In this document: one piece after another, positions 626-40,973 of the stretch
Layout of the letters: every line of letters begins with the position of its first letter
How positions within the stretch are numbered: position 1 is the first letter of the stretch
DNA from: Saccharibacillus sacchari DSM 19268
GTDB lineage: Bacteria; Bacillota; Bacilli; Paenibacillales; Paenibacillaceae
Direction: 5' to 3'
Assembly: GCF_000585395.1 (NCBI RefSeq)
Contig: NZ_KK073875.1
Coordinates: forward strand, 3,139,774 to 3,203,773
Length of the DNA: 64,000 nt
The notes under the pieces: generated by a model
Databases searched by the model: none
Seen by the model: the letters and a program-made list of their open reading frames with translations, nothing else
Told to the model about the DNA's origin: nothing
Program-made: the position numbers and the translations under genes

Positions 626-708
626 ATATAACAGGGCAGGCAAGTCGTTGACGAACCAAGCCAACCACACGGATGTGGGAATCAACCAATTCAGGGAGGA
701 AACAAACA

Positions 709-6389: not shown

Positions 6390-6397
6390 AGTCGTAC

Positions 6398-7414: not shown

Positions 7415-7444
7415 CTTTAGCTTTTTCACACTGGAGGATTGTTT

Positions 7445-8425
7445 ATGATCGCAGTTGTTGGCGGAGCGGGATATATTGGTTCGCATGCGGTAAAGCATTT
7501 GATTGAAAAAGGTGAGCGGGTGGTCGTATTTGATAATTTGTCAAATGGACATCGTGAATTGCTTCATCCTAAAGCCGCTTTTTTTCAAGGAGATTTGGCT
7601 TCTCGGTCGAATTTAGAGGCTTTTTTCGATCAATACGAAGTAGATTCTGTGATTCATTTTGCAGCATTCGCCTATGTAGGGGAATCGGTCAAACAACCTG
7701 CGAAGTATTACCGGAACAATATGGCCAATACATTAAACCTGCTGGATGCGATGTTAAAGCATGAGGTGGAATCTATAGTTTTCTCCTCAACCTGCGCCAC
7801 TTACGGTAATCCGGTTAAGCTGCCGATTGACGAAACTCATCCCCAGCAACCAATTAACCCTTACGGACGCACGAAATTGATGATGGAACATATGATGGAG
7901 GACTACGCGTCGGCTTATGGAATGCGCATAGCGGCGCTTCGCTACTTTAATGCAGCTGGTGCGGATTTAGAGGGAGAGATTGGAGAATGGCATGAGCCGG
8001 AGACACATCTGATTCCGTTAGTATTAGAAGCGGCAAGGGGAATTAAGGATGAACTTTTGATTTTTGGACATGATTTCGATACAAAAGACGGTACCTGCGT
8101 ACGCGATTATATACACGTCATGGATTTGGCAGATGCGCATTATCGGGCTTTGATTTATCTTCGTGAAAATTCAGAAAATCTCAAATTGAATCTGGCCAAT
8201 GGAGAAGGTTATTCCAATCTTGAAATTATTCAAATGACAGAGCGAATTACCGGGCGGAAAATCAACTATACATTAACTGGGCGAAGAGAAGGAGATCCGG
8301 CAATTCTAATCGGTTCGGCAGCACAGGCAGAAAAGCTTTTGGGCTGGAAACCAAACTACACGTTAGAGCAGATTATCGAGTCCGCTTGGAACTGGCATGT
8401 GAAGAAATGGGAGGAGAAAGTATGA
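7445..8425 (+). CDS. galE: UDP-glucose 4-epimerase
   Basis: Interconverts UDP-glucose and UDP-galactose with bound NAD. 326 residues; GGAGYIGSH at residues 6-14, the SSTCATYG catalytic serine segment, and [13 protein letters not shown] with the YxxxK pair. RYFNAAGA and the C-terminal RREGDPA segment are typical of GalE. ATG start with GGAGG 7 bases upstream; a TTG two codons earlier is less likely. The ATGA overlap with the next gene shows one operon. In this locus it would supply UDP-Gal, the substrate of the UDP-galactopyranose mutase encoded at 23.8 kb. Confidence 0.92.
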
Positions 8426-9372
8426 GAAAGCGCATATTGGTGACAGGGGGCGCTGGTTTTCTTGGGTCGCATTTGATTGATCGTTTAGTTGCACGCGGAG
8501 ATGACGTGGTGTGTATAGACAATTTGCAAACAGGTTCATTGCAAAACATTTCCCATGTACGCGATCAAATTGCATTCGTGGAACATGATATCATTCAGCC
8601 TTTGCCGGAACTCGGAGAGTTTCATGAGATTTTTAATTTGGCCTGTCCTGCCAGCCCGGTTCACTATCAGGTTGATCCTATTCATACGTTCAAGACCAGC
8701 GTGTTTGGAGTACTAAACTTGTTGGAGCTAGCCAAAAAACAAAATTGCAAAATTTTACAGGCGTCCACATCAGAAGTATACGGAGATCCTTTTGTGCATC
8801 CACAGCCTGAAAGCTATTGGGGAAATGTCAATCCGATCGGCGTTCGAAGCTGCTACGACGAAGGAAAACGCGGGGCTGAAACGTTGCTGTTCGACTACGC
8901 TCGAATGTACGGAGTAACGATCAAAGTGGCACGTATTTTTAATACTTACGGACCGCGTATGGATTCGAAAGATGGACGGGTCGTCAGTAACTTTATTGTC
9001 CAATCTTTACGAAAAAAACCGCTTACAGTATACGGAAGCGGCGAACAGTCACGTTCTTTTTGTTATGTAGAAGACTTGATCGAAGGTTTTTTACTTTTGA
9101 TGGATACGCCTAAAGTTGTTCAAGGACCAGTCAATCTGGGAAATCCTTATGAGTTTACAATGTTGGAATTGGCGCAAAAGGTGAATATGCATACGGGAAA
9201 CCACGTGCCTTTAAAATTTGAAGCATTACCGCAAGATGATCCGAAACAAAGAAAGCCGGTTATTGAAGAAGCGCAGCGTCTTCTGAATTGGATACCGTCT
9301 GTGCTGTTGGATGAAGGTTTGCAGCGTACAGTCGATTATTTCAAAAATAACCTTTCGATAAAAAGCGAATAG
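8422..9372 (+). CDS. uxs: UDP-glucuronate decarboxylase (UDP-xylose synthase)
   Basis: Converts UDP-glucuronate to UDP-xylose. 316 residues; [14 protein letters not shown] for [30 protein letters not shown] and [13 protein letters not shown] (YxxxK) are the signatures that separate UXS from other nucleotide-sugar epimerases; [10 protein letters not shown] follows. The start at 8422 overlaps the galE stop and has GGGAGGAG 5 bases upstream; a longer frame to 8386 lies inside galE. The enzyme that makes its substrate, Ugd, is encoded directly downstream, so the pair forms a complete UDP-glucose to UDP-xylose route, implying xylose in the surface or flagellar glycan. Confidence 0.92.
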
Positions 9373-9421
9373 AATAGATAAACGGAGTCCTATACCATGA
9401 TTGCAGAAAGGGTTCGATGGA

Positions 9422-10660
9422 ATGAATATTGCGGTAATTGGAACGGGTTATGTAGGTCTAGTAACAGGAGCTGTTCTGGCAAGCATGAATCATTGCGTAA
9501 CCTGCTTGGATATCGATAAAGAAAAAATCGATTTATTGAATCAAGGGATTTCACCTATTTACGAACCTGGTATGGATGAACTACTACGTACCCATATTCA
9601 AAAAGGGATGCTTCTTTTTACTGTGGATAAAGAAGAGGCTTTTCGGCATGCAGAAGTGGTTTTTGTGGCTGTAGGTACACCGCAAAGTGAAAAAGGAGCA
9701 GCAGACCTGCAGTATGTGGAGCAAGCGGTCAAAGACATTGCAATGACCATTGATCATGATGCAATCATAGTTGTAAAAAGTACGGTTCCGGTCGGAACGA
9801 ATGATCGAGTAGAAGAAATTGTTAACGTGCATAAACGCTTTGATATCAAGGTGCAGGTTGTATCAAATCCAGAATTTTTGCGTGAAGGTTTCGCTCTGCA
9901 TGATAGCTATCATGGAGATCGAATTGTAATCGGTGCAGAATCGGAAGAAGCCGGCAATACGGTACAATCGTTATTTTCCGGTCTAAACGTACCTGTGCTT
10001 CGTACGAATCGTCGAAGTGCCGAGATGATTAAGTATGCATCGAATGCTTTTTTGGCCGTCAAAATCAGTTATATAAACGAAATCGCAAACTTATGCGAGA
10101 AAATCGGGGTCAATGTGCTGGAAGTAGCGGACGGGATGGGAGCCGATCAGCGAATTGGTCGTTCCTTCTTGAATCCTGGTCTTGGCTATGGGGGCTCCTG
10201 CTTTCCAAAAGATACGGAAGCTATTGCTTATCTGGGCAGAGAGCATGATGCCCCGCTTACCATCGTAGAAAGTACGATTAAAGCGAATTTTCGACAGCGG
10301 GAACTTTTTTTGAACAAAGTACTAGATTATTTTAATGGCAATATTCAAGGGAAAGTCATCAGCATGCTTGGGCTTGCTTTTAAGCCAAATACGGATGACT
10401 TGCGTGAAGCCCCGTCTCTTTATTTAATTGAGCAGCTCAAAAAACATGGTGCTGTGGTAAAAGCATATGATCCTGTAGTTAAGCATTTGGCAGAGTGCTG
10501 CGCGAATATAGAAGAAGCGCTGCAAAATGGTGAACTGATTTTGTTGGTTACGGAATGGGAAGAATTCAAGCAGATTGACTGGGAAGTTTTGAATCGTGGC
10601 CGTGTCGGAATTTTGGATGGACGTTATGTGATGAACATGAACAAAGTTTACCAGCTTTAA
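9422..10660 (+). CDS. ugd: UDP-glucose 6-dehydrogenase
   Basis: Oxidises UDP-glucose to UDP-glucuronate in two NAD-dependent steps. 412 residues. Rossmann start MNIAVIGTGYVGLVTG, then VVKSTVPVGT, SNPEFLREG, and the catalytic cysteine in GYGGSCFPKDT; the C-terminal UDP-binding domain contains GLAFKPNTDDLREAPS. The ATG at 9422 has GAAAGGG 9 bases upstream; upstream in-frame TTG (9401) would add seven residues before the conserved N-terminus. It is placed after uxs, and its product is the uxs substrate. No obvious tyrosine-phosphorylation tail. Confidence 0.95.
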   Translation: MNIAVIGTGYVGLVTGAVLASMNHCVTCLDIDKEKIDLLNQGISPIYEPGMDELLRTHIQKGMLLFTVDKEEAFRHAEVVFVAVGTPQSEKGAADLQYVEQAVKDIAMTIDHDAIIVVKSTVPVGTNDRVEEIVNVHKRFDIKVQVVSNPEFLREGFALHDSYHGDRIVIGAESEEAGNTVQSLFSGLNVPVLRTNRRSAEMIKYASNAFLAVKISYINEIANLCEKIGVNVLEVADGMGADQRIGRSFLNPGLGYGGSCFPKDTEAIAYLGREHDAPLTIVESTIKANFRQRELFLNKVLDYFNGNIQGKVISMLGLAFKPNTDDLREAPSLYLIEQLKKHGAVVKAYDPVVKHLAECCANIEEALQNGELILLVTEWEEFKQIDWEVLNRGRVGILDGRYVMNMNKVYQL

Positions 10661-10684: not shown

Positions 10685-11575
10685 ATGGATACGGTCGGCT
10701 TTTATCAAAAAGTGAAAGAAAATCCTTATGAATTTCTAGCAATTTACGGAACAGGTAGCGGAGCATTAAAGCTAATCAATGAATTGGGGGATCTGTATCA
10801 CGAAGTAGATTACGTACTGGATTCATTCAATGAAGAAAAACTGTTTTGTAAGAAGAGACTTTATCGTCCTGCAGAGATAGAACAAGAAATGCTTCAAAAC
10901 ACGTTGATTTTGGTTGCTTCCGAACGTTTTACGGAGATTAAATATCACTTGAAATTGTTAAGTGTTGAAGAAAAGCAACTCGTTCCAATATTTACACAAA
11001 CGATTTTTGACGAAAATAGGTTGAAAAATAGGATTATACATGGAATTAAAGTCGGAAAATGTACTTATGGATTTGAAAAACACGTGTTTGCCGGATCCAC
11101 CGTAAAAGAAATAGGTGCTTTTTGTTCGATTAATGAATCTGCAATGATTGGTACTATGACCAATCATCCGGTTCATTTTATTACTACACATCCATTCTTG
11201 TATGTTCCTGTACAGGAGGGAGCCAAGGTGAATTCGTTTTTAGATGAAATGGAGATCTTTGATTATAAGGAACGTGCCCAGGAAATCGTAATAAAAAACG
11301 ACGTTTGGATCGGAGCCAATGTGGTTGTTATGCCCGGAGTGACCATAAACGATGGTGCAATTATAGGAGCAGGCGCAGTTGTTACAAAAAACGTACCTGC
11401 ATATGCCGTAGTTGGCGGTGTGCCAGCCAAAGTCATCAAGTATCGTTTTGAAGAAGAAGAAATAGAATTGCTGGGGAAAATAAAATGGTGGGAATGGGAA
11501 CTAGAAGTCATAAAAAGTCGTTCGCGTTTCTTTACGCAACCTAAAGAATTTTTGAAGCAATTTAATTTAAAGTAA
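10685..11575 (+). CDS. Hexapeptide-repeat O-acetyltransferase with N-terminal Rossmann-like module
   Basis: 296 residues in two parts. Residues about 15-100 form a Rossmann-like module (FLAIYGTGSGALKLI, then DYVLDS, then TLILVASERFTEI) that recurs in seven other proteins of the island. Residues about 115-280 are a left-handed beta-helix acetyltransferase of the xenobiotic/NodL type: imperfect hexapeptides, DVWIGANVVVMPGVTI, GAIIGAGAVVTKNVPAYAVVGG and the end motif PAKVIKYRF. The layout resembles PglD, which acetylates a UDP-amino sugar and has an N-terminal nucleotide-sugar site, but order and sequence differ. Likely role: acetyl-CoA-dependent acetylation of a sugar or nucleotide sugar. AAGGAAGGGA precedes the ATG. 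Confidence 0.8.
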   Translation: MDTVGFYQKVKENPYEFLAIYGTGSGALKLINELGDLYHEVDYVLDSFNEEKLFCKKRLYRPAEIEQEMLQNTLILVASERFTEIKYHLKLLSVEEKQLVPIFTQTIFDENRLKNRIIHGIKVGKCTYGFEKHVFAGSTVKEIGAFCSINESAMIGTMTNHPVHFITTHPFLYVPVQEGAKVNSFLDEMEIFDYKERAQEIVIKNDVWIGANVVVMPGVTINDGAIIGAGAVVTKNVPAYAVVGGVPAKVIKYRFEEEEIELLGKIKWWEWELEVIKSRSRFFTQPKEFLKQFNLK

Positions 11576-11623
11576 GCGAACATGTTGAATGCGTCTTATT
11601 TCAACATAAGGGGGATACTTATT

Positions 11624-12616
11624 ATGAAGGATACTCTTATTTTCGGAGCATCAAAGTTAGGTTCGGCGGTTTTAATGCTCTGTGGGGGAGCCTACAATGT
11701 CGTTGGATTTTTGGATAATGATCAAAACAAAAAAGGAACTTTTTTAAGTGAACTGCCTATCTATCAGATAGAGGATATAACCTTGCAAGACTATCACATC
11801 ATTATTGCAAGTTCGTACTTTGAAGAAATTCAAGAACAACTTCATGGGTTAGGTTATTACTCATATGAAGTATTCAGTTATGGCGTATCCATGTTAGGCA
11901 ATCAAAATAGCTTGGTGAAAAATGAAGGTAAGTTAAAAAAAATTTCCGTAGGTGCGTTACTGCATGATCTCCCGAAAATTTCTATAGAAGATTTGAGTTT
12001 TGTAGGAGGAGGATCTACGGCACTGGATTATTTTTTATTGAAAGGGTTGGCTCAAAAGATCGGCGCAGGTCTTTACTTAGAAATCGGAACTTGGACTGGA
12101 GAAAGTATTGCAGCAGTGTCAGAAGTCGTAAATCATTGTATCAGTATTTCTTTGGCTGATGAACATTTGACTGCAGATTTTAAAAATAGGCTTGAAAAAG
12201 ATAATTTTAGCAGGTACTTCTCGAAAAAAGCTAATATTACGCATTATAAAGGCGATTCTCAAACATTCGACTTTTCGGCGCTGGACATTCCTGACTTGAT
12301 TTTTATTGATGGTGATCATTCGTTTGAGGGAATACGTAAAGATACGAAAAATGTTTTTGATTTTGTAGGTTATGAGAATACGGTTGTTGTTTGGCATGAT
12401 TATCGCACCATGAGAAATGAGATTATCAATTCCACCCATAAGGCTGTACAAAGCGTACTTTCTAAGAAATATCAGGATCGATTGTATTTAGTTGAAAATA
12501 CAATGTGCGGGCTTTATCTCCCTGAAAAATACGCGTTCTTAGCGCAACACACCGAGTTGGAAAAACAAATGTACTCTTACCGGGTAGAGTTGTTTTCCAA
12601 ATTAAATGAACTTTAA
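11624..12616 (+). CDS. SAM-dependent methyltransferase with N-terminal Rossmann-like module
   Basis: 330 residues. Residues 1-85 are the recurrent module (DTLIFGASKLGSAVLML, VVGFLDNDQNKKG, HIIIASSYFEEIQEQL). Residues about 120-325 are a class I methyltransferase of the Methyltransf_24 kind: LYLEIGTWTGESIAAVSEV around residues 150-168 is the SAM loop, and LIFIDGDHSFEGIRKD near 225 is the acidic motif typical of cephalosporin hydroxylase-like and sugar O-methyltransferases. The ATG at 11624 has AAGGGGGA 8-9 bases upstream and gives the conserved module start; the frame also opens at 11582 without a ribosome site. Probable role: O-methylation of a sugar in the glycan. Confidence 0.8.
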   Translation: MKDTLIFGASKLGSAVLMLCGGAYNVVGFLDNDQNKKGTFLSELPIYQIEDITLQDYHIIIASSYFEEIQEQLHGLGYYSYEVFSYGVSMLGNQNSLVKNEGKLKKISVGALLHDLPKISIEDLSFVGGGSTALDYFLLKGLAQKIGAGLYLEIGTWTGESIAAVSEVVNHCISISLADEHLTADFKNRLEKDNFSRYFSKKANITHYKGDSQTFDFSALDIPDLIFIDGDHSFEGIRKDTKNVFDFVGYENTVVVWHDYRTMRNEIINSTHKAVQSVLSKKYQDRLYLVENTMCGLYLPEKYAFLAQHTELEKQMYSYRVELFSKLNEL

Positions 12617-12633
12617 GAGTAAGGAGACGTAGT

Positions 12634-13788
12634 ATGAATATTGTATTTGCGGCCGATAATCATTATATACAGCACTTATCTGTAACCCTCACTTCTTTGC
12701 TAGAAAATGCAACGCATAAAGACAAAATTACTATCAATATAATTGGAAAAGATATCGAAATCAAGAACAAGCTTTTTTTGGATCAGTTAGTGCAAGGTTA
12801 TGGTTCGAGAATCGTGTACAAAGAAATAAATCCCAATCTATTGAAAGAAGCAGTGATTAATGGTCATATTACAGAAGCGACTTATTATCGAATTTTGATT
12901 CCAAATTTATTCGAGGCGGACGTGAAAAAAGTACTGTATTTGGATTGTGATTTGGTGATCACCGCAGATATCTGGGAGCTTTGGGATACGGAGCTGGATG
13001 GACATGCTTTAGGAGCTGTACGCATATACGAATATGTCAATGATGGAAGAGTGCCTGAAAATGCGACTTATTTTAATGCAGGGGTGCTTTTGATTAACTT
13101 GGATAAATGGAGAAGTGAAGATCTTACGCGTAAGGTTCTTGAATATATCAAGGCCTACCCGGACAGACTCCTGTCTTGGGATCAAGATGCATTAAACGGC
13201 GTGCTATATGAAGAATGGGTCGAACTGCCGTTCCACTGGAATTTTAGAAGCCAGTTGTTTGAACTGAATAGTGAACAATTTCCTTTCGTGGAGAAGCGAA
13301 TATTTGAAGAAAGCCAATCTAATCCTTCAATCGTACATTTCACTACAAACTCGAAGCCTTGGCATTATATGAATGAACATCCTTATAAAAATGAATATTT
13401 CAAGTATTTAGATAATAGCGGCTATCCTTATACAAAATATAAAGAAGAAGCAATATTGAAAAGATTGAATTATATTTTGTTTGGTGCAGGTTTAAAAGGC
13501 CAAACGGTTAAAACTCGTCTGGAAAAAAAGGGACTTAGAGTAACAGGGTTTTTGGATAATAGTCCAAGTAAATGGGGAAGTGTAATTGAAAGTTTGCCAG
13601 TGCTGAAACCAGATGTGGACAATATCGATTTCGATAAGAATGTAATTGTCGTCAGCAGCCAGTATGAAAAAGAAATATCGGAGCAGCTAATCCAATCAAA
13701 CCTCAAGCCAAATGAGCATTTTTTTAATGACATCGATAATTTATATTTGTTAGCGAATCAGCTTGAAAAGAAAAAGAACCGACGATGA
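12634..13788 (+). CDS. GT8 family glycosyltransferase with C-terminal Rossmann-like module
   Basis: 384 residues. Residues 1-265 are a GT8 (galactosyltransferase/LgtC type) domain: MNIVFAADNHYIQHL, the metal-binding DxD in VLYLDCDLVI near residue 104, YFNAGVLLINLDKW, SWDQDALNGVL and VHFTTNSKPWHY. GT8 enzymes use UDP-sugars with retention. Residues about 280-365 are the recurrent module (LNYILFGAGLKGQTV, VTGFLDNSPSKWG, VIVVSSQYEKEISEQL). AAGGAG 10 bases before ATG. The end overlaps the next gene (ATGA). A second GT8 of the same architecture lies at 22.7 kb, but the two are clearly diverged. Donor sugar unknown; UDP-Gal, UDP-Xyl and UDP-Glc are all candidates here. Confidence 0.88.
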   Translation: MNIVFAADNHYIQHLSVTLTSLLENATHKDKITINIIGKDIEIKNKLFLDQLVQGYGSRIVYKEINPNLLKEAVINGHITEATYYRILIPNLFEADVKKVLYLDCDLVITADIWELWDTELDGHALGAVRIYEYVNDGRVPENATYFNAGVLLINLDKWRSEDLTRKVLEYIKAYPDRLLSWDQDALNGVLYEEWVELPFHWNFRSQLFELNSEQFPFVEKRIFEESQSNPSIVHFTTNSKPWHYMNEHPYKNEYFKYLDNSGYPYTKYKEEAILKRLNYILFGAGLKGQTVKTRLEKKGLRVTGFLDNSPSKWGSVIESLPVLKPDVDNIDFDKNVIVVSSQYEKEISEQLIQSNLKPNEHFFNDIDNLYLLANQLEKKKNRR

Positions 13789-15458
13789 AGATTATACATT
13801 TTACCAGCGGGGAGATAAGCGGTGGAGCAGCCAGAGGAGCATTATTTCTGCATGAAGCTTTAAAGAAAGAAGGACTGGATTCTGTTTTTTTTGTTGGACA
13901 TCAGGATGCTTTGATATCCCACCCGAATGGAGCATATCCGACCTCTGAGAAATCCATTATGATGAAAAGGTATAGAAACGTCGTTTTTGAAAAATTTATG
14001 CTTAAAGAATATGACCATTCGGCTCAGGATTTATTCAGCTTAGGGACCGGAACCTTTGATCGCGAAATTGTGGAAATTAGCAAAGTTGCCGATATTGTTC
14101 ACCTTCATTGGATAAATAATCAGATGCTGAGTATAGAGGCTATATCCCAAATACGAGTTCCGATCATATGGACACTTCGGGATATGTGGCCTTTTACCGG
14201 AGGATGTCATTATTCCAAAGGGTGCAATCAATATACCAAAGGTTGCGGAAATTGCATTCTATTGAAGAGTCCTAGTACAAAAGATCCTACCTACTGGACC
14301 TATCAACAGAAGTTGGCACATCTTTCTCGAAATATATATCCGGTTGCATTAAGCGCTTGGTTGCAAGAGTGTGCAGCTCAAAGCCGATTATTTGCACAAA
14401 ATGATGTGCAGATGATTCCGAATTGCATAGACATAAACACTTTTACTGCCTTTGCAAAAGAAGAAATGCAAAGCAAGCTAGATCTGCCAAGCGGAAAAAA
14501 AATCATTTTATTTGGAGCTGTCAATTCTTTTTCGGACGAAAGAAAAGGTTTTGGGCTCTTAAAAAGAGCGCTATTGGATATGCCAAATAAACACAGATAC
14601 CATTTGGTAACTTTCGGAGATTCAAATGACGGAGTAGTGGCAGATATGGGTTACTCATTTACCAACTTCGGTAGGGTAAGTAGCGACTTTTTGCTGGCTC
14701 AAATTTATTCTGCGGCACATGTGTTTGTTGCTCCTTCGATAGAGGAAGCATTTGGCAAGACAATTGCGGAAGCTATGGCTTGCGGTACCCCGGTAGTTGC
14801 TTTTAATGCTACGGGTCCACGGGACATTATATCGAATCTGGTAAACGGGTATCTTGCAGAGCCGTTCAGTACAAACGATTTAATCAACGGCATAGAATGG
14901 ATTACAGGCCTTGAACCTTTTGAAGCGCAAAAGCTTGGCGAGCACGCTCGGAAACAGGTATGCGAACAATATAGCCAATCTGTAATAGCAAGAAAATATA
15001 TGGAGCTTTATCAGAATGTTTTCAATCGAGATAGCGCTGCGATTTCGGTTTTACAGGATTCCGGAGAACTTACTTGTAAAAGAGAGCGAGATCAGAAGGA
15101 TTTCTCTCACTTCCTTCTTCAAGAGTTCCAATTATATAATAAATGGTATATTTTTGATGATAAATGGTTGCAGAATTTTCGTTCTCAAAAAAGAAAAGTG
15201 GCTGTATACGGAGCTGGCAGTTTTGGCTTGGAAGTAGCAGAACTCTTGGCCGAGTATAGGTTTTCTGTCGATTGTTTTATTGATAGCAATGCCCAAAAAG
15301 CTGGCACACTTTTCGGGGGGTACGAGATTAAAAACGTGGCAGAATGTACAGATCATTTTATTTTCATTGCTTCAGAATGGTACAAAGAAATTGAAAAAAC
15401 AATCGTAAACAAAGGTTTAAGCAAAAATCAGTACGTAATATGCATGAAATGGGGATAG
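13785..15458 (+). CDS. GT4 family glycosyltransferase with C-terminal Rossmann-like module
   Basis: 557 residues. Residues 1-410 have the GT-B fold of family 4: SGEISGGAARGALFLHEAL at the start, and the EEAFGKTIAEAMACGTPVVAF ExxxxxxxE donor motif near residue 319. Cysteines in GGCHYSKGCNQYTKGCGNC (around 140-160) look like a metal or disulfide cluster, seen in WcaC-like relatives. Residues about 465-557 are the recurrent module (RKVAVYGAGSFGLEVAEL, VDCFIDSNAQKAG, FIFIASEWYKEIEKT). Start overlaps the previous stop. Nucleotide-sugar donor not predictable; a GDP-sugar such as GDP-fucose is possible because the GDP-fucose genes follow. Confidence 0.85.
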   Translation: MKIIHFTSGEISGGAARGALFLHEALKKEGLDSVFFVGHQDALISHPNGAYPTSEKSIMMKRYRNVVFEKFMLKEYDHSAQDLFSLGTGTFDREIVEISKVADIVHLHWINNQMLSIEAISQIRVPIIWTLRDMWPFTGGCHYSKGCNQYTKGCGNCILLKSPSTKDPTYWTYQQKLAHLSRNIYPVALSAWLQECAAQSRLFAQNDVQMIPNCIDINTFTAFAKEEMQSKLDLPSGKKIILFGAVNSFSDERKGFGLLKRALLDMPNKHRYHLVTFGDSNDGVVADMGYSFTNFGRVSSDFLLAQIYSAAHVFVAPSIEEAFGKTIAEAMACGTPVVAFNATGPRDIISNLVNGYLAEPFSTNDLINGIEWITGLEPFEAQKLGEHARKQVCEQYSQSVIARKYMELYQNVFNRDSAAISVLQDSGELTCKRERDQKDFSHFLLQEFQLYNKWYIFDDKWLQNFRSQKRKVAVYGAGSFGLEVAELLAEYRFSVDCFIDSNAQKAGTLFGGYEIKNVAECTDHFIFIASEWYKEIEKTIVNKGLSKNQYVICMKWG

Positions 15459-15467
15459 TCTATCGCA

Positions 15468-16484
15468 ATGAAAACAGCTTTAATTACAGGCATTACAGGT
15501 CAAGATGGAGCCTACTTGACCCAATTTCTTTTGGAGAAAGGCTACTATGTGCATGGATTGATTCGACGGGCGTCAATAGAACGCTTTGACAGGATAGAAG
15601 CTTATCTTAATCATCCTCGTGTCAATCTTCACTACGGTGATATGACGGACTCTTCCAATCTTATTCGTCTTATGTCAGAAATCAAACCCGATGAAGTATA
15701 TAACCTAGCCGCAATGAGTCACGTGAAAGTTTCTTTCGATACACCGGAATATACGGCTAACGCTGATGGATTAGGTATGCTTCGCCTGCTGGAAGCGATT
15801 CGCATACTGGGTTTGGAAGAAAAAACCAGGGTTTATCAAGCGTCTACCAGTGAGTTGTATGGAAATGCCAAAGAAACGCCACAGTCGGAAGAGACCCCTT
15901 TTTATCCGCGGAGTCCATACGCTGCAGCTAAAATCTATGCTTATTGGATCGCTGTCAATTATAGAGAAGCATATCGGATTTTTGCATGCAACGGCATCTT
16001 ATTCAACCATGAATCTCCTTTACGCGGAGAGACTTTTGTGACGCGTAAAATTACGCTAGCCGTAGCTGCAATTAAACATAATCGGCAGGAATGTCTCTAT
16101 TTAGGAAACATGGATGCTAAGCGAGATTGGGGCTTTGCCGGGGATTATGTAGAAGCAATGTGGTTGATGCTGCAGCACACGGAACCAGAAGATTTTGTTG
16201 TTGCTACAGGTGAGACGCATACCGTTCGCGAATTTGTTGAACTGGCTTTCGCAGAAGCCGGAATCGTAATTGCCTGGAAAGGAGAAGGAGTAGAAGAAAA
16301 AGGTATCGATACAAAAACGGGTAAAACGGTGGTTGCTATCGATCCGCAGTTTTTTAGACCGACCGAGGTGGATTTACTGTTGGGCAATCCTGAAAAAGCC
16401 AGAAGAAAGTTAAACTGGCAGCCCAAAATTTCTTTTCATGAGCTTGTGCGAATGATGATTCAATACGATTTGAAGCAAGGCTAG
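15468..16484 (+). CDS. gmd: GDP-mannose 4,6-dehydratase
   Basis: Makes GDP-4-keto-6-deoxy-D-mannose, the precursor of GDP-L-fucose and GDP-rhamnose. 338 residues with the Gmd signatures [19 protein letters not shown], the RRAS loop near residue 35, [14 protein letters not shown] and [12 protein letters not shown] (YxxxK), then [21 protein letters not shown], which holds the GDP-mannose contact region. Ten bases after the GT4 gene. Together with manC and fcl downstream it completes the route from mannose-1-phosphate to GDP-L-fucose. Confidence 0.95.
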
Positions 16485-16591
16485 ACTATGTTTTGAACTT
16501 TTCTTTTATTGGCCTGCGGCTGTTGTTCGGTATACAGACATACTTGGCCGTTTGAGGTTTGAACAGTGTCAACAGCAAGGGAGCGTAGAGG

Positions 16592-17911
16592 ATGAAAGTT
16601 ATCTTACTTTCAGGTGGATCAGGAACAAGACTCTGGCCCTTATCAAACGATTCACGTGCAAAACAATTTTTGAAAGTATTGCGAAATACCGAGACCGGAC
16701 AATTGGAATCGATGGTACAGCGAGTTTATCGTCAGTTATGTGAAATAATGAGCGAAAAGGATATTATTGTAACGACCAATTCGGCGCAAGTAGATATTTT
16801 GCGAAATCAGCTTGGTGATATTCCGATCGTGGTAGAAACGGAGCGGAGGGATACTTTTCCCGCGATCGCGCTGGCCTGTACTTATTTATACTCAGAGTTA
16901 GGTATCGAGAAAAAAGAAATAGTAGCAATTGTATCAGTAGATACGTTTGTAGATAACTCATTTTATCAACAGGTAAACGAGCTTGAGAATCTTCTCACCT
17001 GCACAGGCGCCGAAATTGCATTATTAGGTATCAAGCCCACGTATCCTTCATCAAAATACGGGTATATTATTCCGGAAAAGCATGATGATTATATGCAGGT
17101 GGCGTATTTTGTTGAAAAGCCTTCTGAAGAAAAAGCGGAAATATTGATTGAAGCCGGTGCATATTGGAACAGCGGAATATTTGTATTCCCGCTTCAATTG
17201 ATTTACGATACGCTGCAAGCCAATCAGCTGCCGTGCACATTTGAAAAGTTAAGATCGAATTTTTCATCATTGCCTAAAAAAAGCTTTGACTATGCCGTTC
17301 TTGAGCAACTATCTCGAATCGTGGCATTGACGTATGACGGATATTGGAAAGACCTCGGTACTTGGAACACTTTGACAGAGGAAATGTCTCAACAGATTAT
17401 AGGGAATGGAGGAATTAGCGAGGATTGCCACAATACTCATATCATTAATGAATTAGAGCTGCCGGTGAAAGTGCTTGGGGTATCTAATGCAGTAATTGCA
17501 GTAAGCGCAGATGGGATTTTAGTGACTGATAAACCGTCCAGTTCCAAAATGAAAGATATGTTGCACGAAGGATTGTTTTCGCGTCCGATGTACCAAGAAC
17601 AGCAATGGGGATGGTATCGAGTTCTGGACTACGCGAAAAAAGCGGAAAAAGAAATTTTGACTAGAAAGTTATTTTTGAAAGCCGGAAGGCATATAGAGTA
17701 TCCATCAACACCTTCTTGTACTTTCGTGTGGACAATAATATCTGGAGAAGCCGCTTTTTTACAAGATGAAAAACACGAAATATTAAAAACTGGAGACGTT
17801 ATTCATGTTTCTGCACAAAACCTATATGTGCTGCATGCGGTAAAAGATACGGAGTTTATTGAAGTGCGTATTGATGAACAAGCAGTTAAAAGCGTGGATT
17901 GGGAAGATTGA
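16592..17911 (+). CDS. manC: Mannose-1-phosphate guanylyltransferase
   Basis: Forms GDP-mannose from mannose-1-phosphate and GTP. 439 residues. The nucleotidyltransferase domain starts LLSGGSGTRLWPLSNDSRAK (residues 4-23), with FVEKP and YWNSGIFVF further on, and TYDGYWKDLGTWNTL for metal/product contact. A short C-terminal cupin-like part (from about residue 340: KLFLKAGRHIEYP, then SGEAAFLQ) is reduced compared with the bifunctional ManC/phosphomannose isomerase (about 480 residues), so isomerase activity is doubtful. No phosphomannomutase gene is in the window. ATG with GAGG just upstream. Confidence 0.9.
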   Translation: MKVILLSGGSGTRLWPLSNDSRAKQFLKVLRNTETGQLESMVQRVYRQLCEIMSEKDIIVTTNSAQVDILRNQLGDIPIVVETERRDTFPAIALACTYLYSELGIEKKEIVAIVSVDTFVDNSFYQQVNELENLLTCTGAEIALLGIKPTYPSSKYGYIIPEKHDDYMQVAYFVEKPSEEKAEILIEAGAYWNSGIFVFPLQLIYDTLQANQLPCTFEKLRSNFSSLPKKSFDYAVLEQLSRIVALTYDGYWKDLGTWNTLTEEMSQQIIGNGGISEDCHNTHIINELELPVKVLGVSNAVIAVSADGILVTDKPSSSKMKDMLHEGLFSRPMYQEQQWGWYRVLDYAKKAEKEILTRKLFLKAGRHIEYPSTPSCTFVWTIISGEAAFLQDEKHEILKTGDVIHVSAQNLYVLHAVKDTEFIEVRIDEQAVKSVDWED

Positions 17912-17974
17912 AAACTATTCAAATTCCATTAGGGTATGCCGAATTGCTATGAAGTAGGCGGTGAGGATGAACGT

Positions 17975-18925
17975 ATGAGAAAAGATGCCAAAATTTATGT
18001 GGCCGGTCATCGTGGATTGGTCGGATCAGCTATTGTAAGAGCTTTAGAGGAAAAAGGATATCATAATTTGATTTATCGAACCAGCTCTGAACTAGATTTG
18101 CGACAGCAATCTGCGGTTCAACATTTCTTTGCAGAGGAAAAGCCGGATTATGTATTTCTGGCGGCAGCCAAAGTAGGAGGTATTTTAGCAAACTCGACCT
18201 ATCCGGCTCAATTTTTATATGACAATTTAATGATTCAGGCGAATGTAATCGAAGCCGCTTACCGGAACAAAATAGATAAGTTGTTATTTTTGGGAAGCAC
18301 CTGCATTTATCCTAAATTGGCTCCTCAACCGCTTCAAGAAACTTATCTGCTCACAGGCCCACTTGAAGAAACTAATGAGGCTTATGCAATCGCCAAAATC
18401 AGCGGGATTAAATTGTGCGGTTCATATAATAGAGAATATGGAACAAACTATTTAAGCTTGATGCCAACCAATCTGTACGGTCCTAACGATAATTTTGATC
18501 TAGGGACTTCGCATGTAATGCCAGCACTGATGCGTAAAATCCATGAAGCTAAAATGATGCGACAGTCGACGGTTACCGTATGGGGCAGCGGCAATCCGTT
18601 GCGCGAATTTCTTCACGTGGACGATATGGCACAGGCATGCATCTTCGTAACAGAGCATGTGAAGGCCGAAAAAGCGGGCGAATTTATAAATATAGGCACT
18701 GGAGTGGAGATTACGATTCGAGATCTGGCTTTATTGCTTTGCGAAGTCATTGGTTTTGAAGGAAAGTTGATATTCGATCCAAGCAAACCTGACGGTACAC
18801 CGCGTAAGCTGACAGATGTATCGAAGATTCATCATCTCGGTTGGAAGCATCGGATCGAATTGAGAGAAGGTATTCAAGACACCTATCAATGGTATTTGAA
18901 ACAGATGGAGGAAGCCAATGAGTAA
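17975..18925 (+). CDS. fcl: GDP-L-fucose synthase
   Basis: NADPH-dependent epimerase-reductase that turns GDP-4-keto-6-deoxymannose into GDP-L-fucose. 316 residues; AGHRGLVGSAIVRALEEKG, VFLAAAKVGGI, LLFLGSTCIYPKLAPQPL and YAIAKISGIKLC (catalytic Tyr/Lys), then PTNLYGPNDNFD and WGSGNPLREFLHVDD are diagnostic of Fcl/WcaG. Start at 17975 with GGTGAGG 8 bases upstream; the frame extends to 17936 but without a site or conserved sequence. Ends 8 bases inside the next gene, so translation is coupled. Confidence 0.95.
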   Translation: MRKDAKIYVAGHRGLVGSAIVRALEEKGYHNLIYRTSSELDLRQQSAVQHFFAEEKPDYVFLAAAKVGGILANSTYPAQFLYDNLMIQANVIEAAYRNKIDKLLFLGSTCIYPKLAPQPLQETYLLTGPLEETNEAYAIAKISGIKLCGSYNREYGTNYLSLMPTNLYGPNDNFDLGTSHVMPALMRKIHEAKMMRQSTVTVWGSGNPLREFLHVDDMAQACIFVTEHVKAEKAGEFINIGTGVEITIRDLALLLCEVIGFEGKLIFDPSKPDGTPRKLTDVSKIHHLGWKHRIELREGIQDTYQWYLKQMEEANE

Positions 18926-20024
18926 GCCGAAAATCACTATCGTTACAGCTTGCTATAACGCGGAAAAAACTATCGAGCAGACAATAGAGAGTGTATTGAA
19001 GCAAGCTTATGAGAACTTGGAGTATATTATTATCGACGGTGCTTCGACCGATCATACCATGGAGATAGTAAACCGGTATCGAGATCGCATCGATTTGGTT
19101 GTGTCCGAGCCGGATCGAGGTATTTATGATGCATTCAATAAAGGAGTCCGGCTAGCAACTGGAGAGTACATTAACTTCATGAATGCAGATGATTATTTCA
19201 GCAATGAATCTGTTGTGGAGCAAGTCGGGAGCTTTCTTGAACAAAATCCAGAAACTGTCATGACTTATGGGAGAGTGCAGGCTATGGATGACGAAAACGG
19301 ACATTGGTATTTCAGGGGGCGTCCGCTCACTCTACAAGAATACCGAAATGGAGATATGTATCCGCACCAATCCGGATTTACACAAAAAAAGTTATTCGAA
19401 GAATTCGGTTATTTTGATACTCGTTATAAAATATTGGCGGATAAAGACTTTACTGTTAAGTGTATTAAAAAATATGAAGAGTTTATAAAATTTTTACCTT
19501 TAGAAATTGCCGTCTTTAGACTTGGTGGTATAAGTTCATCGCTAGAGAACGAAAAAGAACGCGATTTGGAGCATGCACATATTCAATTAAATCATTTTGG
19601 TTCTATACCCGAAAAATTGATGGATACAATTAATCATGCAGATATCTATTTGACTCAGAAGATTTATATGGTGTGGTTGAACCAACTGTTGCTCGGAAAA
19701 GACCGGATCATAAAAAAAATAATTGAAAATAATATACGAAAAGTGTATATATTCGGCACCATGGATAATGCGACCCGACTTTATCACTATTTTTCGGGCA
19801 AAGATACAGAGTTTTTGGGTTTTGTAGATAACAATCCACAAATGCAAGTCAAAACCCTGCATGGACAAAAAATTTGGAATCCGAACGAACTGAAAATCGA
19901 TTCCGATACAGCCGTCGTGATTTCGATTGAAAATCCCAATACCGTTCGTGTCGTAGAGCAACAATTGATTGCTCTGGGCTTATCGGTATCTAATATTTTT
20001 GAATGGAAAAAGCTTTTGTTATAA
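18918..20024 (+). CDS. GT2 family glycosyltransferase with C-terminal Rossmann-like module
   Basis: 368 residues. Residues 1-235 are a GT-A inverting glycosyltransferase of the WcaA type: ITIVTACYNAEKTIEQTIESV, IIIDGASTDHT, SEPDRGIYDAFNKG, FMNADDYF (metal site). Residues about 270-365 hold the recurrent module (RKVYIFGTMDNATRLYHYF, FLGFVDNNPQMQ, TAVVISIENPNTVRVVEQQL); this is the most divergent copy, lacking the usual SSYxxEI motif. Ribosome site GGAGG lies inside fcl, and the start overlaps the fcl stop by 8 bases. Because it directly follows the GDP-fucose genes, a fucosyltransferase role is possible, though GT2 enzymes usually use UDP or dTDP donors. Confidence 0.85.
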   Translation: MSKPKITIVTACYNAEKTIEQTIESVLKQAYENLEYIIIDGASTDHTMEIVNRYRDRIDLVVSEPDRGIYDAFNKGVRLATGEYINFMNADDYFSNESVVEQVGSFLEQNPETVMTYGRVQAMDDENGHWYFRGRPLTLQEYRNGDMYPHQSGFTQKKLFEEFGYFDTRYKILADKDFTVKCIKKYEEFIKFLPLEIAVFRLGGISSSLENEKERDLEHAHIQLNHFGSIPEKLMDTINHADIYLTQKIYMVWLNQLLLGKDRIIKKIIENNIRKVYIFGTMDNATRLYHYFSGKDTEFLGFVDNNPQMQVKTLHGQKIWNPNELKIDSDTAVVISIENPNTVRVVEQQLIALGLSVSNIFEWKKLLL

Positions 20025-20063
20025 GCATTCAATTTAAAGTTCATTAAAGATAGGAAGATCGAT

Positions 20064-21512
20064 ATGAGACCGTTGGAAGATTTTTTGATCGAGAAAAGCC
20101 TGGTTTTATTTGGAACCGGAACTACGGCCGGCAAACTTAATGAACAAATCAGCGTTGCCGGCATTCGTATCGACTATTTTAGTGATAACGATCTCACAAA
20201 ATGGGGAGAGAACTTTCAACAACATCTTATTGTGGCTCCATCGGAATTACGGACAGAGCGAGACGTTATCGTGATTGCAAGCGAATACGAAGCCGAAATT
20301 GCCGAACAGCTGACGAGAATGGGATTTGTAATGCATCACAACTGTCTTTTGCATACTCGTCTTTTGATACGAAATAATAAAATCGAGTACTGTTGGGATA
20401 CAAAAGTACTTTCCGAGCTGAAGGCTATCGTTCCTTTAGATGATCTGAAGGCGACAAGCCTAGAAAAAATTCCGGTTTTGCAAAGTGATTACCGATTTCT
20501 TTGTCAAAATCCGATAAATGTAAGTGGATCCCAGTATCCGAGTTTTATGATTCCGCAACAGTCTTATCCTTTAAAAGACGTGAACATCTATATTTTTGAG
20601 CAAGGCACAACGACAGGCGACAACGGAGTCATATTGACTGCGGAAGGTTACTTGATTCGCGAATTTTCGACTTTCACGACCCTTGCGTTAAATATATGGG
20701 ATGCGCAGAGGGTGAAGATCGACGTGATCGGAAATAAGGATGTTGCGGTTTTAAAGCATACCGTAGCCGTTACCACTACGCAGTGGAGCGGTGCCAATTA
20801 TTATCATTGGATGATGGAAGAGCTGCCGCGTTTTTACTTGCTAGGTGCTTACAAGGAACCGATCGATTACTATATCAGCAATTATACAATGCGTGCGTTT
20901 CAACAAGAGACGCTTGAATGTATGGGCATTCCTATACATTCGATCATTAAATCAAGCAACATTTACGCGATTCAGGCTGAGAAATTGGTCGTTCCGTATT
21001 CGCCTGCTTACGATTCCGGATATGTCTCGAAATGGATATGCAATTTTTTGAATCGTTTATTTTCGTCAGCGTTGCAAATCGATGAACGTAAATATCATAA
21101 GCATATTTATATAGCTAGAGGAAATGCGAAGAATCGAAAAGTGGTCAATGAAGAAGATGTCATAGAATATCTGACAAACATGGGTTTTCAAATTGTTTAT
21201 TTGGAACGACATAGCGTACGGGAGCAAGCCGCCATTTTTTACAATGCGGAAGTGATTATAGGTCCTCATGGCGCCGGATTGACCAATCTTGTTTTTTGTA
21301 GAAAACAAACAAAAGTCCTGGAACTTTTCAGTCCTATGTATGCTCCGATTATGTTTTGGAATATTTGCGAAAATCAAGATCTTATTTATCATTGCGCTGT
21401 AGGTGATAGGACGGATTTTGAGTATACTGAGCGTGTGGGCGTATATGTGAACGAAAAAGATATTCATGTCAATATCGAGGATATTTCCAGATTTGTTTCC
21501 TTGTATCTCTAG
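20064..21512 (+). CDS. GT61 family glycosyltransferase with N-terminal Rossmann-like module
   Basis: 482 residues. Residues about 8-105 are the recurrent module (KSLVLFGTGTTAGKLNEQI, IDYFSDNDLTKWG, VIVIASEYEAEIAEQL), here N-terminal. Residues about 230-440 match the GT61/DUF563 domain: SGANYYHWMMEELPRFYLL, YIARGNAKNRKVVNEEDV and AEVIIGPHGAGLTNLVFC. GT61 contains plant xylosyl- and arabinosyltransferases and many bacterial capsule and flagellar loci proteins. A xylosyltransferase using the UDP-xylose made by Uxs/Ugd of this island is therefore a reasonable guess, not proof. AGGAAG 9-10 bases before ATG. Confidence 0.85.
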   Translation: MRPLEDFLIEKSLVLFGTGTTAGKLNEQISVAGIRIDYFSDNDLTKWGENFQQHLIVAPSELRTERDVIVIASEYEAEIAEQLTRMGFVMHHNCLLHTRLLIRNNKIEYCWDTKVLSELKAIVPLDDLKATSLEKIPVLQSDYRFLCQNPINVSGSQYPSFMIPQQSYPLKDVNIYIFEQGTTTGDNGVILTAEGYLIREFSTFTTLALNIWDAQRVKIDVIGNKDVAVLKHTVAVTTTQWSGANYYHWMMEELPRFYLLGAYKEPIDYYISNYTMRAFQQETLECMGIPIHSIIKSSNIYAIQAEKLVVPYSPAYDSGYVSKWICNFLNRLFSSALQIDERKYHKHIYIARGNAKNRKVVNEEDVIEYLTNMGFQIVYLERHSVREQAAIFYNAEVIIGPHGAGLTNLVFCRKQTKVLELFSPMYAPIMFWNICENQDLIYHCAVGDRTDFEYTERVGVYVNEKDIHVNIEDISRFVSLYL

Positions 21513-21529
21513 GAAAGGCGGTTAACGAA

Positions 21530-22642
21530 ATGAACGGAAAAATCGCTGTTTGTTATCATAAAAAAATGCCATTCATTCATAACGAAGTTTTGACTCCTTT
21601 TTTGCTTAATGCCCAAAAAAAACCTCTTCCTGGATTTGAATATGCGGACGATATCGGAGAAAATATTTCATCAAAGAATGAAACTTATTGCGAAATTACG
21701 GCTTTATATGCGATTTGGAAAAACGAAGTCTGGCAGGATATGGACTATATCGGATTATTTCATTACAGACGAATTTTATCGCTAAATAAACAATTGAACG
21801 ATCAGCTTTCCGAGCATGACTTATTTGAAATAAATGAAGTGAACGGTGAATATACTCAATATGGGCTTTCCAAATTTCAAATCGATCAAGTCATGCAAAA
21901 CTGTGACGTGATTCTTCCGATGCCGAGAACATTTGCGGACACCGTTTATGATCAATATGCAAACTCGAAAGATCATTATATCGAACATGTAAAAAGCGCG
22001 TTAGCCTTTATCAAAAAGAATTATCCTGCTTACAAAGAATCGGCACAACATGTATTCGATTCGCATCAGGTTAGCCTATACAACATGTTTGTCATGCGGA
22101 CCGATTTGTTTCGAATATACTGCGAATGGCTTTTTCCGATTTTACGCGATGCAGAGACCGCAATGGACGATAGTCTTTTCAATATTCAAGAACGTAGGTA
22201 TATCGGTTTTTTGACTGAACGCCTTTTTAACGTTTTTATTCATTATCAACAAAAATATCGGCAGCTGGATATACGGTATTTTCCCGTTTTTCAACTGAAT
22301 TATGAACAGCCTTCCACAAAGCTGCAGGAAGTTTTGCGAATCCGTGACAAAGTGGCGCTTTTCGGCACCGGAACCTACGCAGCTAAAATGACAGTCATGC
22401 TGAATAATCCAATCGTTTGTTTCGTGGACAATAATGAAAAATTAGAATCTTTTGCCGATCTTGAAGTGCTTACGCCTGTCGAGTATCAGCGGCGATTCGG
22501 TAAACGGAATCCGATTCTGATCTGCAGTAGTTACGAAGAGCAAATTTCGCAGCAGTTGTCTTCCATGGGGTACGAACACAATCAAGATTACTTTAAACTT
22601 GATACTTCTTATTTTATTGCGCAGCGGCTTGAAGCGCACTAA
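21530..22642 (+). CDS. DUF4422 putative glycosyltransferase with C-terminal Rossmann-like module
   Basis: 370 residues. Residues about 5-250 match DUF4422, a family of capsule and exopolysaccharide proteins thought to be glycosyltransferases: IAVCYHKKMPF, NETYCEITALYAIWKN, YIGLFHYRRIL, CDVILPMPR, and later MFVMRTDLFRIYCEWLFPIL. Residues about 272-365 are the recurrent module (KVALFGTGTYAAKMTVML, VCFVDNNEKLE, PILICSSYEEQISQQLSSMG). AAGGCGG before the ATG. Donor and acceptor cannot be deduced. DUF4422 proteins are often near glf, as here, so a galactofuranosyl role is worth testing. Confidence 0.8.
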   Translation: MNGKIAVCYHKKMPFIHNEVLTPFLLNAQKKPLPGFEYADDIGENISSKNETYCEITALYAIWKNEVWQDMDYIGLFHYRRILSLNKQLNDQLSEHDLFEINEVNGEYTQYGLSKFQIDQVMQNCDVILPMPRTFADTVYDQYANSKDHYIEHVKSALAFIKKNYPAYKESAQHVFDSHQVSLYNMFVMRTDLFRIYCEWLFPILRDAETAMDDSLFNIQERRYIGFLTERLFNVFIHYQQKYRQLDIRYFPVFQLNYEQPSTKLQEVLRIRDKVALFGTGTYAAKMTVMLNNPIVCFVDNNEKLESFADLEVLTPVEYQRRFGKRNPILICSSYEEQISQQLSSMGYEHNQDYFKLDTSYFIAQRLEAH

Positions 22643-22672
22643 AGTTGTTCGGATTGAAAAGGAGCTTCCCTA

Positions 22673-23815
22673 ATGAATATCGTGTTTACTATTGATCGGA
22701 ATTATATTCAACACCTGTGCGTGACGTTAAAATCCATTTTGCGGCATACAAAGACAAACTTGTCTGCCTATATTATAGGGAAAGACTTGGGCGAACCGGA
22801 CCGAAGACTCATTGAAGAAAACTTTATTGATGATGAAATCCGGTTCTTTTTTATAGAGATCAATCCGGATCGGCTTTTACGGTTGGGAATCGACACCAAT
22901 CATCTACCCATTGAAGTATTGTTCCGCCTTGTTGCTCCGGAGTTGCTGCCGGATTCGGTAGAAAAAGCGATCTTTATGGACTGTGATATTGTAGTTCTCG
23001 ACGACTTGGCGATTTTGTACGAGACTGAATTGGAAGGGTATCTGCTTGGCGCGGTAGTGGACATTATTTATGAGGCGTACCGTATTCTGAATTTGGATTC
23101 CATATTGGATTATTTTAATGCCGGAGTTATGTTGATTGATATTTTCTCTTGGCGAAAACAAGATTTTACCGCACAGGCATTGAAATACGCCTCCGAAAAC
23201 GCGGCTATATTGCGTTATGCGGATCAGGATATTTTGAACGGGTTACTGCGGGGAGTTTGGAAAAGACTTCCGCAGCAATGGAACGTCATTACGAATCTTT
23301 TTGAAAACCCGACCGTTTTTCAAAAGACTTTTGGCGAAGAACGGCATGCGCAGGTTTCTGGTCGTCCAAGCCTGGTTCATTTTACAGGAGATATAAAACC
23401 GTGGAGTTTTTTTTCCAACCATCCTTATCGCGATCGATATGATCTTTATTATAGGATGTGTAGCGGTTTTGCCTGGGAAAGAAAATCATCGTTCGCTTAT
23501 GCTTGTCCGCTCTACCTGTTCGGTTCCAGCGTGAATGCCATAGAAATGTCCAAAAAGCTTGAAGCCGCAAATATGACGATACAAGGATATATAGATAACG
23601 ACCGTCAAAAACAAGGCCTTTTGTTGAGAGAGAAGCCGATCATTGCTCCGGATACATATAATGCTGCGGAGAACTCTTTGATTATTATAGCAAGCTCTTA
23701 TACGCGCGAAATTTCAGAACAGTTGGAACAAATGGGTTTGATTTATAAACAAGATTTTTTCAAAAATCTTTCCGAATACGAAAACTATTTGACGGGTTGT
23801 GAGAAGAATGTTTGA
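22673..23815 (+). CDS. Second GT8 glycosyltransferase with C-terminal Rossmann-like module
   Basis: 380 residues, the same domain order as the GT8 protein at 12.6 kb: MNIVFTIDRNYIQHLCVTL, DxD in IFMDCDIVVLDD near residue 102, YFNAGVMLIDIFSW, YADQDILNGLL and VHFTGDIKPW; then the module at about 285-375 (PLYLFGSSVNAIEMSKKL, IQGYIDNDRQKQG, LIIIASSYTREISEQLEQMG). AAAAGGAG 8 bases before ATG. It overlaps the start of glf. The two GT8 proteins share the framework but not much else, suggesting different acceptors. Confidence 0.88.
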   Translation: MNIVFTIDRNYIQHLCVTLKSILRHTKTNLSAYIIGKDLGEPDRRLIEENFIDDEIRFFFIEINPDRLLRLGIDTNHLPIEVLFRLVAPELLPDSVEKAIFMDCDIVVLDDLAILYETELEGYLLGAVVDIIYEAYRILNLDSILDYFNAGVMLIDIFSWRKQDFTAQALKYASENAAILRYADQDILNGLLRGVWKRLPQQWNVITNLFENPTVFQKTFGEERHAQVSGRPSLVHFTGDIKPWSFFSNHPYRDRYDLYYRMCSGFAWERKSSFAYACPLYLFGSSVNAIEMSKKLEAANMTIQGYIDNDRQKQGLLLREKPIIAPDTYNAAENSLIIIASSYTREISEQLEQMGLIYKQDFFKNLSEYENYLTGCEKNV

Positions 23816-24953: not shown

Positions 24954-25018
24954 TTTGCACGAGTAAAATGAATTTATGTCTTCCCGCATACACTCAATGA
25001 AGCATAGTGAGGGTTAAA

Positions 25019-32036: not shown

Positions 32037-32047
32037 GGAGGGATCAT

Positions 32048-40759: not shown

Positions 40760-40973
40760 CTATGTCAAAAAGAAGAGAAGAGTATAGATATAAATATAAA
40801 TTCTCAATCCTTTATACCCATATAAAGTAATATATTGTACTAAATACAAGGTTCATTGTTTTTCGAAACGTTTAAGCAAAAAGTAGTGTATTTTATGAGC
40901 CTTTTAGCCCAGTCTATCGACGGACAGTCTGCAGAAGTGTTTTTAAGGAATGATTCGGAGAGGGGAACATCTA
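40760..40973. other. AT-rich leader region before the adhesin gene
   Basis: No gene. A/T-rich with a short direct repeat CAGTCT at 40911 and 40926. No convincing promoter could be picked with both boxes well spaced. GGAGAGGGG at 40957-40965 serves the adhesin start. Confidence 0.4.

Follow-up and report, generated by a model that had tools for sequence, protein, structure and literature searches.

A Rossmann-type accessory domain shared by eight glycan enzymes in a flagellar locus of Saccharibacillus sacchari

Why should enzymes of different catalytic families, encoded almost side by side, carry the same small domain? The question is raised by a stretch of 64,000 nucleotides of the Saccharibacillus sacchari DSM 19268 genome (contig NZ_KK073875.1, positions 3,139,774 to 3,203,773 of the forward strand; hereafter the window), in which a preliminary description had seen one Rossmann-like module of about 85-100 residues fused to eight unrelated glycan enzymes. 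All eight segments prove to be copies of a single mobile accessory domain of Rossmann type. In other genomes the module is concentrated next to the flagellar gene fliD, and the carriers that can be named are mostly enzymes adding groups to a glycan.

Eight copies of one module

All eight open reading frames (ORFs) lie where they had been placed, that of the methyltransferase opening at 11582, upstream of an in-frame ATG at 11624, and the module is N-terminal in three and C-terminal in five, as described. The copies are given below with their E-values and the family evidence for each carrier (GT, glycosyltransferase).

10739..10978, + strand: module in a hexapeptide acetyltransferase (ORF 10685-11575, N-terminal); E 3e-11; Hexapep
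11630..11866, + strand: module in a methyltransferase (ORF 11582-12616, N-terminal); E 1.4e-20; Methyltransf_24
13468..13722, + strand: module in a GT8 (ORF 12634-13788, C-terminal); E 1.1e-21; Glyco_transf_8
15192..15434, + strand: module in a GT4 (ORF 13785-15458, C-terminal); E 1.2e-19; Glycos_transf_1
19737..20000, + strand: module in a GT2 (ORF 18918-20024, C-terminal); E 1.9e-15; Glycos_transf_2
20094..20330, + strand: module in a GT61 (ORF 20064-21512, N-terminal); E 4.2e-21; Glyco_transf_61
22349..22588, + strand: module in a DUF4422 protein (ORF 21530-22642, C-terminal); E 4.8e-15; DUF4422
23510..23758, + strand: module in a second GT8 (ORF 22673-23815, C-terminal); E 3.8e-20; structure model

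A window-free profile was built from 109 modules of other, named contigs, first gathered by an iterated profile seeded with the window copies. Of the 108 window ORFs it matches exactly these eight (E 1.1e-21 to 3e-11), the next-best scoring E 0.029, which rules out chance similarity of the segments. In pairwise phmmer comparisons of each segment with the eight proteins (E-values for a database of eight), the two GT8 copies match at 2e-14, GT61 and GT8 at 1e-12, methyltransferase and GT8 at 2e-10, and many copies link at 1e-7 to 1e-14; the methyltransferase copy matches GT61 or DUF4422 more weakly (about 1e-5 to 1e-4), and the GT2, acetyltransferase and GT4 copies are mostly weakly linked. The number of carriers in the preliminary description stands, their unrelatedness less so: two are GT8 enzymes, with catalytic parts 39% identical, and seven catalytic families are represented. 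No further copy was found in the 6,075,237-base genome, where a profile of the window copies gives eight places at E <= 1, all in this locus. None of the eight proteins is assigned the module by Pfam at its cut-offs, so that the module is likely overlooked in routine annotation.

A structure model of the module bears out the proposed Rossmann-type fold with confidence (pLDDT 90.4, pTM 0.82). The nearest structures and families by sequence and fold are the N-domain of VioB and PglD, the accessory domains of FlaA1-type proteins and WbaP, Rex, and the PDB entries 2g6t and 3nkl, the top Foldseek match being VioB (7txp, 2e-4). Model and residue counts reveal the marks of nucleotide-binding Rossmann-type domains, a beta-alpha-beta unit, a GxGxxG-type loop and an acidic residue after strand 2. 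Glycine loop and Asp rank among the most conserved positions: of 222 modules (those of 249 passing a quality and coverage filter), 216 retain the first Gly, 187 the second, 201 the Asp that follows strand 2, and 161 all three. First Gly and Asp are present in 8/8 window copies, the second Gly in 5/8; the GT2 copy has lost both the second glycine and, as had been noted, the SSxY motif, and retains the Asp.

The module belongs to a superfamily comprising the PglD/VioB N-domain, the C-methyltransferase C-terminal domain, the FlaA1/WbaP accessory domain and the Rex NADH domain; sequence and fold comparisons agree here with the kinship to PglD, C-methyltransferase and CapD/FlaA1-type domains suggested earlier. 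PglD_N (PF17836), the N-domain of PglD/VioB/NeuD N-acetyltransferases, has the fold and the GxG...FxDN/D pattern in common with the module and is matched by 14 of 73 modules at E <= 0.01. Its curated cut-off is missed by the window copies (best 18.2 vs 23.4 bits) and passed at locus L061:6739-7641 (23.9). Unlike PglD_N, the module is carried mostly by proteins other than acetyltransferases, and attachment to a left-handed beta-helix acyltransferase is confined, among the eight, to 10685, the only one with Hexapep. Methyltransf_14 (PF08484), the C-terminal domain of sugar C-methyltransferases, is matched by 17 of the 73 at the same threshold; the window copies miss its curated cut-off (best 18.3 vs 23.5 bits), some relatives pass (L073, 45 bits), and, unlike in the Methyltransf_14 setting, the module sits on many non-methyltransferases. 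C2185-like_N (PF22674), a name that probably refers to the DUF1919 protein solved as 2g6t, is a family whose listings give no function; it is not reported at its curated cut-off for the eight window proteins, and L059:18274, L048:11943 and L126:2362 pass it. CoA_binding_3 (PF13727), the domain of WbaP and FlaA1-type dehydratases, is not reported for the eight, and the ten families that the 73 modules match at E <= 0.01 do not include it; its best-known carriers, membrane phosphoglycosyl transferases (PGTs) and dehydratases, are unlike those of the window.

Carriers and spread of the module

Module matches were detected in 50 of 148 genomes of the same family. In 35 fetched stretches plus the window (36 regions) an iterated profile detects 114 modules, each on an ORF of its own; 48 are N-terminal, 60 C-terminal and 6 in the middle. 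The genome search for other catalytic domains that had been proposed from the window yields 39 carrier clusters in these regions (single linkage, modules masked before clustering; one cluster merges GT2 with GT4). Pfam, run on 40 carriers, adds to the types known from the window Methyltransf_23, pyruvyl transferase, TagF-like, LicD, TylF, RgpF, FkbM, WbsX, DUF1919, NKWYS (sulfotransferase-like), DUF4915, MptE-like and a cytidylyltransferase-like fusion; a CmcI-like match is below its Pfam cut-off. Two MptE-like (Maf-type) proteins with an N-terminal module, L057:9627-10688, above the Pfam cut-off, and L062:7683-9152, below it (25.5 vs 34.6 bits), may be the most direct link of the module to flagellin glycosylation.

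Among 115 relatives of sugar-nucleotide and nonulosonate enzymes in the 36 regions, none carries the module. The 115, which include the window's own enzymes, were collected with phmmer (E <= 1e-10) starting from 15 enzymes of the window; these 15 were named from sequence, with Pfam support for three (6386, 26190, 33274). By comparison 114 of 153 transferase relatives bear it, a circular count, since carriers served as queries. Nor is the module a built-in part of GT8 enzymes, or a normal part of this enzyme family everywhere: it is found in 3 of 22 GT8 matches in the family genomes (the two in the window and one in genome G020, some 7 kb away from fliD), and absent from 19, some up to 44% identical. 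Nine of the 19 come from genomes in which fliD was located; by eye, not one of these nine is found closer than 35 kb to that gene.

Near full-length relatives of the methyltransferase, GT8 and GT2 fusions of the window occur in Lysinibacillus, Paenibacillus, Robertmurraya and uncultured Bacillus. The claim that the module was fused independently several times holds in so far as fusion was repeated, given the 39 clusters, at least 55 changes of carrier in the module tree and the DUF4422 protein, in which the module is C-terminal in the window and N-terminal in L126; the fusions need not have occurred here, because such relatives exist in other genera. DUF4422 relatives were sought in the 148 genomes, the window's own copy being the only one.

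In a tree of modules the carrier label changes 55 times against 85.5 +- 1.9 in shuffled labels (39 states), and the locus label 94 times against 96.8 +- 1.7 (36 states). The tree, built on few columns, is poorly resolved (53 of 111 inner branches open), and 55 is a minimum. Modules therefore travel mostly with their enzyme, with repeated new fusions, and those of one locus are generally not a matched set. Mean scores tell the same: 58.1 for modules of one locus on unrelated carriers, 55.4 between loci (222 modules). Docking sets co-evolved within each locus were rejected on both grounds, the set of the window scoring higher. Islands may rather gather ready-made enzyme-module cassettes from a common pool.

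At the phylum level 140 of 398 genomes match, with many ORFs of 200-240 amino acids among the weaker ones. The largest counts in single genomes, among the matches listed, are 11, 10 and 9, so the set of eight is less unusual than had been thought. A pattern scan over named genomes gave at least 118 loci, at least 49 with the module, and at least 135 domains, in taxa including Lachnospiraceae, Oscillospiraceae, Paenibacillus, Lysinibacillus, Geobacillus and a Synergistetes bin. Twelve Ornithinibacillus gellani loci (L130 and 11 more) match the FxDNxxxKWG DNA pattern, with no module in any; L130 has three pattern matches about 155 bases apart, probably an unrelated repeat.

Some architectures stand apart. 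Proteins of about 155-170 amino acids in Lachnospiraceae and other Clostridia (L099:2405-2884, L109:1107-1571, L132:1863-2369, L161:5310-5783) have a hydrophobic stretch at the N-terminus (by eye), joined by a short linker to a single module, and are encoded beside module-bearing enzymes. L194:5309-7006 (Pseudobutyrivibrio) has two tandem modules, the first without aligned kin, followed by a CxxxCxxC region (by eye, radical-SAM-like). L117:5775-7274 has one module at each end of an FkbM-like region (by eye).

Flagellar setting

In the family genomes 74 of 98 module matches in ORFs of at least 250 amino acids are found no more than 35 kb from fliD (66 of 90 without the window's genome). Thirty of 40 genomes contribute to these matches, and the 70-kb zone concerned is about 1.2% of a 6-Mb genome. 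None of the 14 matches in ORFs shorter than 250 amino acids (PglD size, by length only) falls in this zone, unlike longer carriers. fliD was located in all 50 module-matching genomes, the best match per genome being used and weaker fliD-like matches left out. In the phylum sample, 38 genomes have at least two matches (by-eye count, among the matches listed), and 28 were retained, ten with best E > 1e-10 being left out. By eye, 17 of the 28 have fliD on the contig of a module copy, at about 90 kb or less, and in 13 of these 17 the nearest listed copy is within 35 kb; in the other 11 genomes fliD is far away (G294, single contig), not matched (G351) or on another draft contig (nine genomes). The module is no mark of flagellated genomes as such. 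fliD is found in 309 of 398 phylum genomes anyway, so its presence in 27 of 28 and 34 of 37 module genomes (the latter for named loci, whose contig numbers were not matched with certainty) says little, and only nearness counts.

Both this flagellar context and the restriction to transferase-like carriers had been missed in the preliminary description. The features of the window that bear on them are the following.

18-530, left window edge: end of a second flagellin, very similar to the one at 673-1476 (by eye)
673..1476, + strand: flagellin; Flagellin_N and Flagellin_C Pfam matches
2023..3711, + strand: FliD; FliD_N and FliD_C; landmark of the neighbourhood test
4584..6389, + strand: Maf/PseD-type flagellin modification protein, without module; MptE-like 6e-33, NCBIfam FlagModPseD 1.8e-30, under the family cut-off
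6386..10660, + strand: sugar-nucleotide enzymes without significant module match; Pfam for the first (PseB-like dehydratase) only
15468..18925, + strand: three sugar-nucleotide enzymes amid the carriers, without significant module match

Genes that we take to be FlaG-, FliS- and FliT-like lie amid the flagellin, FliD and Maf-type genes. The enzymes following the PseB-like dehydratase are presumably GalE-like, UXS-like and UGDH-like, and those at 15468..18925 presumably GMD-like, ManC-like and GDP-fucose-synthase-like. The flagellin, FliD and Maf-type genes come first and are followed by sugar-nucleotide genes and then the carriers; beyond these lies a nonulosonate-type cluster, in which Pfam identifies NeuB and a cytidylyltransferase. 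Judged from its gene content, in which flagellin, fliD and Maf adjoin sugar genes and glycan transferases, the window has the make-up of a flagellin glycosylation island, and the eight carriers probably build the flagellar sugar coat.

Flagellin islands of Geobacillus and Clostridium are, in the portions of PMC5109656 and PMC13317340 available, like the window in being variable, in lying in flagellar loci, and in holding sugar biosynthesis and flagellin modification genes; those of Geobacillus also hold GTs, Maf and methyltransferases. Unlike in the window, no shared module is described in these portions, and the words "Rossmann" and "fused" are absent from both main texts. No published description of a shared module was found in the open-licence papers searched: the fold is already known, its promiscuous use as an add-on to flagellar-island transferases was not found described there. 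A single add-on domain across unrelated folds offers a sequence handle for island transferases, including those without a family name, and a concrete hypothesis for the grouping or regulation of island enzymes. It also bears on the open question of how long, variable flagellin glycans are assembled in the cytosol before export.

Possible roles of the module

The sharing of one domain by glycan enzymes suggests a common way of grouping or controlling them. Starting from the observed homology, fold, retained GxG...D motif, fliD linkage and transferase bias, we tentatively favour, with somewhat less than even confidence, a common nucleotide-responsive association domain, as in WbaP. By analogy the module would self-associate, like the related WbaP domain, and would sense a nucleotide, either a by-product of the UMP/UDP/CMP type or NAD(H); cytosolic transferases acting on flagellin would be held together and, more speculatively, switched together before flagellin is exported. 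Glycine loop and Asp, kept on unrelated carriers, fit a common ligand, and a shared role at the acceptor would agree with the preference for transferases and flagellar islands. Since modules are hardly more alike within a locus than between loci, one ligand or partner would be expected to serve every locus. A docking code private to each locus is disfavoured by this weak locus-wise resemblance, which would still be compatible with a partner or ligand common to all. In the part of PMC10942596 available, the WbaP accessory domain makes most dimer contacts and is stabilised by UMP, UDP and UTP, the IC50 of UMP for the full-length enzyme is 4.1 uM, and the authors propose a one-size-fits-all regulation. 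For EpsZ, a related large PGT, the portion of PMC12802240 available describes activation by a response regulator, which is proposed to favour dimerisation of the enzyme.

Several points weigh against a nucleotide-responsive association domain of island transferases. A reviewer quoted in the same portion of PMC10942596 remarks that UMP may inhibit competitively, and the WbaP dimer is reported there to form by a beta-hairpin swap, a feature that the module may or may not share. GTs release nucleotides in a way that acetyl- and methyltransferases do not. The second glycine is replaced in three of the eight window copies (Ser, Ser, Met), which makes a uniform binding mode impossible for all copies. 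The window's eight modules are more alike among themselves (68.5) than to others (58.9). In the same regions 39 carrier relatives lack the module, several carriers have no family name or resemble other things (such as the radical-SAM-like L194 protein), and L058:9624-12026, from a cluster without fliD linkage, combines the module with a cytidylyltransferase-like domain, the only nucleotidyltransferase-like carrier seen. Among the 98 long-ORF matches, 24 are not placed in the 35-kb zone, 6 lying far from fliD on the same contig and 18 on contigs other than that of fliD (distance undefined); they include module clusters in G069, G070, G099 and G147, and LicD, TagF-like and CTP_transf fusions are found in clusters among the 24, so flagellin may not be the sole setting.

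The module might instead serve the substrate side of its own enzyme, as in N-acetyltransferases of the PglD type and in sugar C-methyltransferases, helping to bind the nucleotide part of the substrate, its clustering merely reflecting the enzyme content of islands. Its nearest solved kin include the nucleotide-sugar enzymes VioB and PerB, and in enzymes of this type the nucleotide sits in the module-like domain; modules moreover travel with their carrier family, and some copies pass the Pfam cut-offs of Methyltransf_14, C2185-like_N or PglD_N. Yet the GT8, GT4, GT2 and GT61 folds contain donor sites of their own, most GT8 kin manage without the module, and it is missing from all 115 relatives of sugar-nucleotide and nonulosonate enzymes, which leaves this reading rather unlikely. 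We also regard as unlikely a docking tag with a relic pocket, by which each transferase would be recruited to a conserved protein partner (flagellin, FliS, Maf, or a hub consisting of the module only). It would account for a module common to carriers of unrelated chemistry, for the linkage to fliD and for the three window copies kept with an altered glycine loop, and the small Clostridial proteins with a hydrophobic stretch and a module could be its membrane hubs; the conservation of glycine loop and Asp would however be odd for a pure docking surface, and the near-shuffled distribution of modules over loci does not favour it either. Homodimerisation or stabilisation of each enzyme separately, with no shared ligand or partner and with island frequency due to cassette exchange, would suit an accessory domain attached at either end and cassettes that look ready-made in other species, but it leaves fliD linkage, transferase bias and pocket conservation unexplained and appears quite improbable.

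The nucleotide-responsive association domain can be extended, in a bolder form that we consider doubtful, to a general assembly-line tag of Gram-positive flagellin glycosylation: a transferase of any fold would join one cytosolic flagellin complex by acquiring the module, and one nucleotide would control the pairing of modules, either mutual or with a membrane hub like the module-only candidates of Lachnospiraceae. If so, islands could swap enzymes freely and diversify the flagellar glycan.

Other genes of the window deserve mention. Just past the carriers, 25007-26170 encodes a GT2 with a TPR-like C-terminus, without the module. Within the nonulosonate-type cluster, AMP-ligase-like (by eye), LuxE and LuxC genes at 29560-33277 make up an unusual acyl-activation and reduction set adjoining NeuB. 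A large surface protein is encoded at 40950-44843, with Collagen_bind and SpaA domains, and with Pro-rich repeats and an LPxTG-like end recognised by eye.

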